Positions 3,368 to 62,586 of a stretch of 62,586 nucleotides of DNA are shown piece after piece; the first letter of the stretch is position 1; each line of letters begins with the position of its first letter. The position numbers were made by a program, and so were the translations under genes. The notes beneath the pieces are model-generated. The model was not told where the DNA came from and did not search any database. It worked only from the letters and a program-made list of their open reading frames with translations. The DNA lies in the NCBI GenBank assembly GCA_027717985.1, contig JALLOO010000004.1, positions 1 through 62,586 of the forward strand, written 5' to 3'. The stretch is from Patescibacteria group bacterium AH-259-L05 (GTDB lineage Bacteria > Patescibacteriota > Patescibacteriia > UBA2591 > UBA6264).

Positions 3368-3527
3368 ACCTTAATGATACCATAAATTTTATAATTGAGG
3401 AATCTGAAAAATCCTTGAAATTAATAATTTCAAGGATTTTCCCAAGATTCTGAGATTAGTTATGTGCCGAAGGCACATGTCCAATTTGTAACCCTATATC
3501 AAAAAATCAGAAGACCGATCTTCTGAT

Positions 3528-5933: not shown

Positions 5934-5963
5934 AAAATGTCCTGAAACGTTTCAGGACATTTT
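5934..5963. terminator. Bidirectional terminator between convergent genes
   Basis: Perfect 30 bp palindrome AAAATGTCCTGAAACGTTTCAGGACATTTT. Confidence 0.85.
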
Positions 5964-54805: not shown

Positions 54806-56005
54806 CTATTGTATCAAGGGCTTAATGCCGGGCAAGGATTTGCCAGATAAAAACGCCAACATGGCACCACCGCCGGTAGAAATGAAGACTCTACCTTCAT
54901 TTCTAACTCTAGACTGTAAACTATAAACTTTAAACTTACGTAGAGCTGATATTGTTTCTCCACCGCCAATAATAATTTTGGCTGTTTTATTTTTCAAAAT
55001 TTCCTGTGCTATTGCTTTTGTGCCTTTTCCAAATTTTTTATTTTCAAAATAGCCCATAGGCCCATTCCATACTATCATTTTTGCTTTGCTAATATATGGT
55101 GAAAATAACTTAATAGTTTCGGATCCGATATCCAATATTTCGGATTGTGTCGGGGATCGGGGCTCCGATTTTGTTTTGAAGTCAACAGGCAGTACAATTT
55201 TTTTATTTTGTAATAATTTTTTAGCTGTTTTAATCATTTTTGGTTCATAAACTGATTTCCCTATATTCACTCCTTGTGCTTTTAAAAAATTATTGGACAG
55301 GGCGCCGCCAACTAAAATATGGTCTGCAAATTTGCTTAAATTTTCTATAGCACCTATTTTAGTTGAAATCTTTACTCCGCCCATTATAACCACAAATGGA
55401 TGCTGTGGTTTTTGTAATACCTGTGACAGATTGTCAACTTCTTTTTCTAGTAAATATCCAGCATAGCTGGGTAAATACTTTGTAATCGCTGAAACTGACG
55501 CATGTTTGCGGTGTGAAACTGAAAACGCGTCATTAATATATATATCAGCCAAATCAGCTAACTGCTTTGCAAACTTTGGATCATTTTCTTCTTCTTGTGC
55601 ATAAAACCGTAGATTTTCTAGCAGCGCCACCTCGCCTGCTTTCATACTATCAACGGCCTGCTTAACTTTCTTACCAAGACAATCATTTATAAACCTCACT
55701 TTTATTTTTGGAAACCGAGTCTCCAAATTTCTATATATTAGCTTTAAGCTGTACTTTTCTACTCTTTCTCCTCTTGGTCTACCAAGATGACTGATTAAAA
55801 TCACTTTTGCGCCTCGTTCCACTAAATACTCAATCGTCGGCAGTGCAAACCGAATACGGCAATCGTCAACTACTTTTAAACAGGTCCGACCTCTTATTTT
55901 TAAAATACGAGGTCGGACATCCTCAAGCGGACAATTAAAATCAACCCGGACTAATACTCTTCTATTTCTGAAATCTTTAATTTGTCGCAATGTTTTCAAC
56001 TTCAT
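54806..56005 (-). CDS. pgk: Phosphoglycerate kinase with in-frame repeat insertions
   Basis: RVLVRVDFNCPLE, VILISHLGRPRGE, VVIMGGVKISTKIG, MIVWNGPMGYFE, IIGGGETI. Confidence 0.95.
   Translation of the reverse strand: MKLKTLRQIKDFRNRRVLVRVDFNCPLEDVRPRILKIRGRTCLKVVDDCRIRFALPTIEYLVERGAKVILISHLGRPRGERVEKYSLKLIYRNLETRFPKIKVRFINDCLGKKVKQAVDSMKAGEVALLENLRFYAQEEENDPKFAKQLADLADIYINDAFSVSHRKHASVSAITKYLPSYAGYLLEKEVDNLSQVLQKPQHPFVVIMGGVKISTKIGAIENLSKFADHILVGGALSNNFLKAQGVNIGKSVYEPKMIKTAKKLLQNKKIVLPVDFKTKSEPRSPTQSEILDIGSETIKLFSPYISKAKMIVWNGPMGYFENKKFGKGTKAIAQEILKNKTAKIIIGGGETISALRKFKVYSLQSRVRNEGRVFISTGGGAMLAFLSGKSLPGIKPLIQ
55150..55173. repeat. Repeat element copy within pgk
   Basis: TCGGGGATCGGGGCTCCGATTTTG, 22/24 identical to 57434-57457. 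Confidence 0.75.
55884..55918. repeat. 35 bp near-perfect palindrome within pgk
   Basis: GTCCGACCTCTTATTTTTAAAATACGAGGTCGGAC. Confidence 0.85.
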
Positions 56006-56117
56006 GTTTTACTGTTTTAATTCTATTTGGACTCCCGTCCAAAGGAAATCGGGATGACAAGTGGTGAGGTGCGGGGTGACCAGGAGAGTAAAGAAGTCGG
56101 GATGACAAAGGGAGAAT

Positions 56118-59111: not shown

Positions 59112-59330
59112 TTTATTTCTGTTAGAATCTAATCTTTTGATTGCCTATTACTTCATTATTATAGCAAAGATAAACAAAAAAGACACGGAGTGGCGCCTGG
59201 TCTCCTCAATTAGGAATACCTGCGTCTCTACCTGCGTCTCCAGGAGACATATCCTCCTTTGCCTTCCCCTTCCTTGTGCTTTGCCCGAAATATGGATGAC
59301 AATTGGGTATATGCGGCAGACGATAACCTG

Positions 59331-59359
59331 GTAACTTGGGAACTGAGTTCCCAAGTTAC
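59331..59359. repeat. Perfect inverted repeat, 13 bp stem, 3 nt loop
   Basis: GTAACTTGGGAAC TGA GTTCCCAAGTTAC. Confidence 0.85.
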
Positions 59360-59388
59360 AAGTTATGTTTAAAGCCAGGGGTTAAACA

Positions 59389-60410: not shown

Positions 60411-62519
60411 TTATTCAAGCTGTTTTAAAAATTCATCTATTTGATCTTTAAGAGAGGGGTCAAATTCTAAGGCTTTCTCGGCTGATTCTTGGGCATTTTC
60501 ATTATTTCCTGTTTTAACATAAATTTGAGCCAATTTAAAGTATAAATTTGCATCTTTTGGTTTTATATAAAGGGTCCACCGATACTGCTGAATTGCTTTA
60601 TTATAATCACCTGTTGCAATATAGGCTTGGACTAACTGAAGCATAAATGCAGCATTCTCCCACCATCGGTAATTTAATTCCCAGGCTCTTTCTGCTGCTT
60701 CAATCCCCTTTTCAAGTTGGCCATCCGCCAGATAAGCTACAGATAAATTAAATTGAGATTCTTTAACCTCTGTATCTAATTTAACGGTTTTCTCTAAAAG
60801 CTCTATAGCCTTGTCATAGTTACGTCGGATAATTTCTATACGGGCTAACTCAAAGTAGGTTTGCTGGCGAGAAGGAGATAATTCTAGGGCTTTTTGCAAA
60901 ACCCTTTCCGCATCTTCAAAATAATCTGGCTTATAGCGCGTTCCCAAATTGTGCAACTGACCTAAATATAAATAATGACGAACATCCAATGGGTGTTCTT
61001 CAACATTTTTCTTGTGTTCACTAATTGCAAATTCCGTCATTGCTACCACAGTTTGTGTATCAGGATTTTTTTGCGCATATTGTTCACTTACGGTTTTAGC
61101 TAGCTGAACTCTTATCTCTGGATTAACAAACGACTCTTTTTCTAATGCTTTTTGATACCAATGAAAACCAGACTTTAAATCAACTTTTGAAGTATGAACA
61201 CCTCTAATTGCTAATCTGGACTGTTGAAATGGTTCAACATTAAATTTATATATTGCCAATGGCAGAAAAACAATAATTAAAAATATGAGAACTGGTAGAG
61301 GGAATCTGCCTCTCTTCTGAGGTCTGACCTCCACTTGAAGGTCAGACCTCTGTGTTATAAAATAAACCAACCCCAAACTAAAATAAAAAACAATCAACGG
61401 CGCAGGCGTATCAAACACAAACAGATTCTGAACAAAATAAGCCAAAAACATCAAGCCCAAAATCATTATAGAAATACGTGCTCTATAATTCTCTATCTTT
61501 TTTAACCTTTGCCAAAGCAAATAAAATATCGAACCAAATATAGACAAATATACTAAAGCTCCAAGAGCCCCAGTTAAAGCTAATAAATCAACCATCTGAT
61601 TATGTGAACGATCAAACCATGTATTTTCCTGACCCTTACGAAGATAAAGCGGGTTATAATGTTTATTAAAAACGATATTATAATTTTCCCATCCCCAGCC
61701 TAAAGTTGGACTTTGTTTGAATCCACGCCACCCAACCTCCCAAGCCGTTGTCCTCTCTTGCATTCCATAACTTAAGTTAGCGAAACGACGAATGAAATAC
61801 GGAGCCTTACTTACCAATGGCTGTGTTTGAGGAAGTTGCATAATAAAAAAAGTAACAGTAAAAATGATCAACAAAATACTCAATCCAATTTTTGTCTTCT
61901 GAGAAGCCCGGCTAAACAATAAAAAAATGGTCAATACAAGCAGGCTTAAAGAAAATGCAACCATGACACCGCGCGAAGCTGCTAAAAACAGAATTACTAC
62001 ATTAAATACAAGTAAACTGCCAACAACCTTTTGCTGTAAAATATCTTTTTTATTATAAACTAAAATAAGTCCAGCCCAAAAAATATTAAGCATTGCATAT
62101 ACTGCCAAAAATATTGGATTTCCCAGCGTAGCAGTCATTTGTACGCCCTCTTCTTTTAATAAGAACTTGAACCCTAATTTTTGCCCGAGCCCGTAAAGGC
62201 CAACCAAAAAACTGACTATTAAACTCACATATATAAATTGTCTCCACTCTGACCAATTCTTGAAAACGCTTATCAAAACAATAAATAAAGCATAAAAGTG
62301 AAACATAGTTACAATTCCTGTCATTCTCTCTTGTGAACTCCAAAAACTTTTATAAAAATCAACTCCTGCTAAAGCTGTTAAAATTAAAATGCCCATAAAC
62401 ATGCTCAGGGCAACAACTAATGGATTTCTCCAATGAGGTCTATATTGTTTATCGCCATACATCGCCAAGAAGAGCCATGCAACAAAAATAATTTCAACCA
62501 AAATCTGAAATACTATCAC
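60411..62519 (-). CDS. O-antigen ligase-like membrane protein with C-terminal TPR repeats
   Basis: Wzy-like TMs with GWGWENYNIVF and DRSHNQMVDLLALTGALG; TPR helices at the C-terminus. Confidence 0.85.
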   Translation of the reverse strand: MIVFQILVEIIFVAWLFLAMYGDKQYRPHWRNPLVVALSMFMGILILTALAGVDFYKSFWSSQERMTGIVTMFHFYALFIVLISVFKNWSEWRQFIYVSLIVSFLVGLYGLGQKLGFKFLLKEEGVQMTATLGNPIFLAVYAMLNIFWAGLILVYNKKDILQQKVVGSLLVFNVVILFLAASRGVMVAFSLSLLVLTIFLLFSRASQKTKIGLSILLIIFTVTFFIMQLPQTQPLVSKAPYFIRRFANLSYGMQERTTAWEVGWRGFKQSPTLGWGWENYNIVFNKHYNPLYLRKGQENTWFDRSHNQMVDLLALTGALGALVYLSIFGSIFYLLWQRLKKIENYRARISIMILGLMFLAYFVQNLFVFDTPAPLIVFYFSLGLVYFITQRSDLQVEVRPQKRGRFPLPVLIFLIIVFLPLAIYKFNVEPFQQSRLAIRGVHTSKVDLKSGFHWYQKALEKESFVNPEIRVQLAKTVSEQYAQKNPDTQTVVAMTEFAISEHKKNVEEHPLDVRHYLYLGQLHNLGTRYKPDYFEDAERVLQKALELSPSRQQTYFELARIEIIRRNYDKAIELLEKTVKLDTEVKESQFNLSVAYLADGQLEKGIEAAERAWELNYRWWENAAFMLQLVQAYIATGDYNKAIQQYRWTLYIKPKDANLYFKLAQIYVKTGNNENAQESAEKALEFDPSLKDQIDEFLKQLE
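61319..61350. repeat. Palindromic element in frame within the O-antigen ligase gene
   Basis: GAGGTCTGACCT CCACTTGA AGGTCAGACCTC. Confidence 0.85.
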
Positions 62520-62586
62520 TTTAGAAAATATATACGGAAAAAGAACGGGTCGATATACCAGAAGCGGTAAAAATAAAATAACAATT

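Follow-up and report, generated by a model that had tools for sequence, protein, structure and literature searches.

The pgk gene in the window (the whole stretch of DNA analyzed, 62,586 nucleotides [nt]) contains a palindrome that, judged from presence and absence between species, is a real in-frame insertion that has not broken the gene. The inserted unit is a member of a family of palindromes that is dispersed in some Patescibacteria, where copies lie both between genes and in frame within them. We consider it probable that a nonautonomous, REPIN-like doublet of 39 nt was copied into pgk and is translated and tolerated there, with a RAYT acting in trans as the presumed agent. Rickettsia is the best-known source of palindromes that encode protein; here, such palindromes are found in genomes of ∼1 Mb from a phylum far removed from it, with pgk, mnmA, murD, and lgt among the genes concerned. 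On this evidence, hairpin mini-elements appear able to lengthen essential proteins again and again despite strong genome reduction. With a defined 39-nt unit and palindrome-flanked RAYT genes, the mechanism can be tested directly, as can the tolerance of inserts.

A 39-nt inverted doublet adds 13 residues to phosphoglycerate kinase

The sequence-only reading had placed a 35-bp palindrome in frame within pgk and proposed that it encodes extra residues, which is borne out by the sequence and by alignments of phosphoglycerate kinases (PGKs) (Table 1). Compared with the closest solved PGKs and with the PGKs of 20 related genomes, the protein has 13 additional residues between PLE and KVVDD, and a check for homologous residues in these palindrome-free proteins found none. 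The PGK of the nearest relative (G002, same family) reads PMKNGQIVDD at this site, and with the 39-nt unit removed, the protein would read PLEGLKVVDD, which is the length seen in relatives. In the same-genus genome G001 (Patescibacteria group bacterium AH-259-L07), a pgk match was not found. In two PGKs from more remote relatives (L076 and L083), other, shorter, and unrelated stretches of residues have been added to the same loop, indicating that this loop tolerates changes in length. In an AlphaFold model of the insertion-bearing protein, the PGK fold is intact (mean pLDDT, 92.2), and the inserted stretch is predicted to be a less certain loop between short strands (block mean, 66). Since the unit spans exactly 13 codons with no stop in the pgk frame and falls in a loop of variable length, the extra residues are probably translated and tolerated, and the longer loop may be close to neutral.

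TABLE 1 Location of the insertion, its host gene, and other repeat-bearing features (positions refer to the window unless a locus is named)
Feature	Position	Strand	Remarks
pgk (phosphoglycerate kinase, glycolytic)	54806..56005	-	399 amino acids (aa), intact; Pfam PGK, 4.5e-130; holds the insertion
39-nt inverted doublet	55882..55920	-	Equals the 13-codon insertion; 17-nt spacer between two cores
First core, AGGTCCGACCT	55882-55892		One end of the 39-nt unit
Second core, AGGTCGGACAT	55910-55920		Other end of the 39-nt unit
35-bp palindrome, GTCCGACCTCTTATTTTTAAAATACGAGGTCGGAC	55884..55918	.	Inner part of the doublet; as placed by the sequence-only reading
Inverted doublet, GAGGTCTGACCTCcacttgAAGGTCAGACCTC	61319..61350	-	In frame, variable loop of the Wzy_C/TPR protein
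Wzy_C (O-antigen ligase)/TPR gene	60414..62585	-	At least 724 aa, incomplete at the contig end; hosts GAGGTCTGACCTCcacttgAAGGTCAGACCTC
∼125-nt repeat, L136 (G000:C13, lgt)	About 1383-1507
∼125-nt repeat, L039 (G001 murD)	587-708
∼125-nt repeat, L050 (G001 murC, upstream part)	About 525-714
∼125-nt repeat, L034	2312-2434

The position given for the palindrome stood, and its extent had to be revised. The arms of the 35-bp palindrome are 17 nt long, 94% complementary, and separated by 1 nt. Both ends of the longer stretch are cores of the small palindrome AGGTCNGACCT, present twice in inverted order with a mismatch in one copy, so the repeat unit is 39 nt rather than 35. Written out, the doublet is AGGTCCGACCT-cttatttttaaaatacg-AGGTCGGACat, with the second core also given as AGGTCGGAC(AT). 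As single-stranded DNA, the unit is predicted to form one strong hairpin (−14.3 kcal/mol; shuffle z = −8.2), and none of 200 shuffled sequences folded as well; for the doublet at 61319-61350, z was −4.7. The window contains 10 palindromes this strong, compared to 1 to 4 in five Markov simulations. Openness across the six reading frames was not better than random. A search for the whole palindrome with exact 10-bp arms finds no copy in the genome other than that in pgk; the part that is repeated is the core, GGTCNGACC.

Related palindromes are dispersed within and between genes

All genome-wide counts were obtained by pattern searching, with the same pattern read backwards as the control. Copies of AGGTCNGACCT number 7 in this genome, 25 in G001, and 7 in another relative (G003), against 0, 2, and 0 for the reversed control. 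The majority of the 58 relatives that were searched contain at most one copy, and the abundance of AGGTCNGACCT is therefore lineage-specific. For GGTCNGACC, the counts were 36 versus 11 and 59 versus 2 for the reversed control. The sequence-only reading had proposed a search inside and outside open reading frames, and related copies turned up in both kinds of place.

The 39-nt doublet is present in near-identical form at two unrelated loci (G001:C71:7637-7663 and G001:C102:5806-5832), at the latter nested within a longer palindrome, and single palindromes with longer arms also repeat at separate loci (e.g., ATTACGGAGGTCNGACCTCCGTAAT and CTACGAGGTCNGACCTCGTAG). The sequences and lengths of the arms vary among palindromes, and their complementarity is kept. 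This variation is what would be seen if each hairpin had originated locally, by replication template switching that perfects imperfect inverted repeats without any transposition. We regard such an origin as improbable, since unrelated loci share not only the core but also extended arms or 17-nt spacers and the change in pgk is an insertion of the full unit length.

The arrangement by which a REPIN is recognized, two short palindromes in inverted order that form one hairpin and occur in several copies, was found in pgk, at 61319-61350, in L034, L041, L042, L044, L046, and L016, and 14 times in G110, where doublets are numerous (8 in one order and 6 in the other). The loop of the Wzy_C/TPR protein that contains the second doublet of the window is freely variable in length, and a further palindrome of this kind is located there in the G003 orthologue. 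Doublets are rare overall in a class sample of 286 genomes and are also present in G278, G187, and G013. A candidate rule for doublet orientation (pyrimidine center first) holds in G000, G001, and G013 and fails in G110, G187, and G278.

Other genes contain in-frame copies

Twenty of the 46 cores examined lie within open frames that span 150 codons or more, a count of frames rather than of proven insertions. Genes that include related palindromes in their reading frame are, among others, mnmA (three copies), tatD, lgt, murD, and ligA. At its palindrome, TatD of G278 has 13 more residues than Escherichia coli YcfH, and tatD contains a frame-compatible 30-nt unit. The tRNA-thiolation gene mnmA of G278 (L161, 1391-2536) carries three in-frame 30-nt doublets, GGGGTCNGACCCC-GTAC-GGGGTCNGACCCC, one of which differs by a single base; elsewhere, this MnmA aligns with solved MnmA, and its family match is well over the cutoff. 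Lgt of G001 is 13 residues longer at the palindrome than its 79% identical G000 orthologue, and an Lgt-like protein of G110 has a doublet in a similar region. LigA has gained only 3 to 4 residues at its palindrome, and GatA has gained none relative to solved homologues; thus, some palindromes would have replaced loop sequence, or their surroundings would have been trimmed.

These data bear on the possibility that the pgk stretch is a native PGK loop, a product of chance, or a regulator binding site within coding sequence. The variable loops of the L076 and L083 PGKs are compatible with the first of these, and a literature count of GGTCNGACC-like strings points to work on PdhR and LldR, two regulators of E. 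coli. However, the inserted residues are in no relative, the hairpin is far beyond the shuffled sequences, and copies lie deep within unrelated genes, in several reading frames, and above the reversed control, so that this explanation is already largely refuted and can be given very little credence.

Related palindromes flank some RAYT genes

The explanation that we favor is that pgk of this lineage received a copy of a short, nonautonomous, hairpin-forming repeat, an inverted doublet of AGGTCNGACCT, and that copies would have spread by single-strand DNA transposition, with a RAYT (Y1/HUH transposase) acting in trans. Y1 transposase matches were found in G000, G001, and G003. The RAYT-like gene on G001:C63 lies between GGGGGTCSGACCCCC palindromes, at a distance of ∼50 nt on the upstream side and ∼30 nt on the downstream side, and one more is in frame inside it (L029, 1468-1494); the RAYT-like gene on G003:C21 also has a palindrome in frame (L031, 1532-1562), similar ones flanking it. 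An inverted pair of TTCTGGGGTCAGACCCCAA is located beside the RAYT gene on G003:C1, and other palindromes are close to the RAYT-like genes on G003:C6 and G003:C21. Those at the G001:C63 and G003:C1 genes are GGTCNGACC palindromes of the GGGGTC subtype. Three GGTCSGACC palindromes lie within ∼1.3 kb at the G001:C63 gene, where ∼0.03 would be expected (36 in 1.4 Mb), and for this reason, RAYT single-strand transposition is thought most likely. By analogy with known systems, the close flanking of some RAYT genes by same-type palindromes suggests REPIN-like mobilization.

The match to the NCBIfam RAYT model was below its cutoff, and the RAYT sequence had no match in the PDB. The AGGTC subtype, to which the pgk copy belongs, flanks none of the RAYT genes found, nor does such a palindrome lie near either Y1 match of this genome. 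The tags of the tagged REP superfamilies were at control level: within 8 nt on both sides of 46 palindromes, GTAG was found in 0 of 92 and CGTC in 1 of 92 cases. One palindrome subgroup has CTAC/GTAG within its arms. The absence of the AGGTC subtype from the flanks of RAYT genes and the missing GTAG tag speak for a dispersed palindrome copied by other means, either another transposase or replication or repair acting on hairpins, as does the case of the CGTC-tagged REPs, including RPE-4 and RPE-6 of Rickettsia conorii, which are likewise without a dedicated transposase (PMC3733652). Spread without a RAYT nevertheless seems to us rather unlikely in view of the palindromes clustered around the G001:C63 gene and the inverted pair at the G003:C1 gene. 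As for the RAYT route, perfect palindromes are substrates of group 3 TnpA-REP proteins, some of which accept an altered GTAG (PMC8266576); the missing tag is therefore not fatal to this step.

Relation to known palindromic elements

In-frame palindromic insertion into a conserved protein gene, the hallmark of Rickettsia palindromic elements (RPEs), is found in pgk and in tatD, mnmA, and lgt of relatives. The proposal of the sequence-only reading that an RPE-like process operates in another lineage gains support from the 13 residues absent from relatives and from the copies found elsewhere. By analogy, the pgk element behaves like an RPE, and REP/REPIN elements are nearer to it in size and architecture. 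The likeness to RPEs is one of insertion, in that a reduced genome carries palindromic repeats inserted in frame in protein genes that are not related to one another; RPE-1 is longer, and the elements described here have no CGTC tag.

REPs and REPINs (PMC3733652, PMC3116915, and PMC8266576) are, like the elements described here, short dispersed palindromes of 20 to 40 nt, often inverted doublets (the REPIN architecture [PMC3116915]), with some copies within genes, where dimers encode 20 to 30 residues (PMC3733652), and with palindrome-flanked RAYT genes. The present elements differ in their symmetric core, GGTCNGACC, in having neither a GTAG nor a CGTC tag, in their low copy number, and in the absence of the pgk subtype beside RAYTs. 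Patescibacteria are not among the phyla named for GTAG repeats in the accessible part of that literature. Coding palindromes of Nematomorpha mitochondria (PMC6649704) are also translated inverted repeats in essential genes, but they reach 284 bp and belong to an animal organelle. Since intragenic REPs and RPEs from other phyla are already published (PMC3733652), this kind of element is already known. What appears to be new is the tagless symmetric core and its occurrence in Patescibacteria, for which a literature search, with most subscription journals outside its scope, returned no report of such elements. It is possible, if somewhat doubtful, that Patescibacteria harbor widespread tagless hairpin mini-elements with frame-keeping doublets (most commonly of 30, 33, and 39 nt) and RAYT lineages of their own; if true, such mini-elements would repeatedly supply the essential proteins of streamlined genomes with new loops.

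Additional repeats in the window and in relatives

A second, longer repeat of ∼125 nt is hairpin-rich and 84 to 93% alike between G000 and G001 (Table 1). It is in frame in lgt (GSGKRSFPVGVTGANN...), and murD uses a different frame. Rfam gave no match for this coding repeat, which is closer to RPE-1 in size than the pgk element is. Repeats of the GTCATCCCGA/TCGGGATGACA type adjoin pgk (window 56030-56110), and an RluD-like gene (L004, about 1595-1615) carries a comparable string, cttgtcatcccgagcgag, in frame close to its end. The RluD-like copy in L004 was set aside as probably due to chance, its residues VRP-TGRTHQIR being, we presume, native to the RluD family. An intergenic palindrome at window 59328-59362, CTGGTAACTTGGGAACTGAGTTCCCAAGTTACAAG, is of the same kind as AACTTGGGAACTNAGTTCCCAAGTT around the RAYT-like gene on G003:C21. 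Strong intergenic palindromes are also present at window 3406-3442 (GAAAAATCCTTGAAATTAATAATTTCAAGGATTTTCC) and 5934-5963 (AAAATGTCCTGAAACGTTTCAGGACATTTT) and are possibly terminators or further repeat families.
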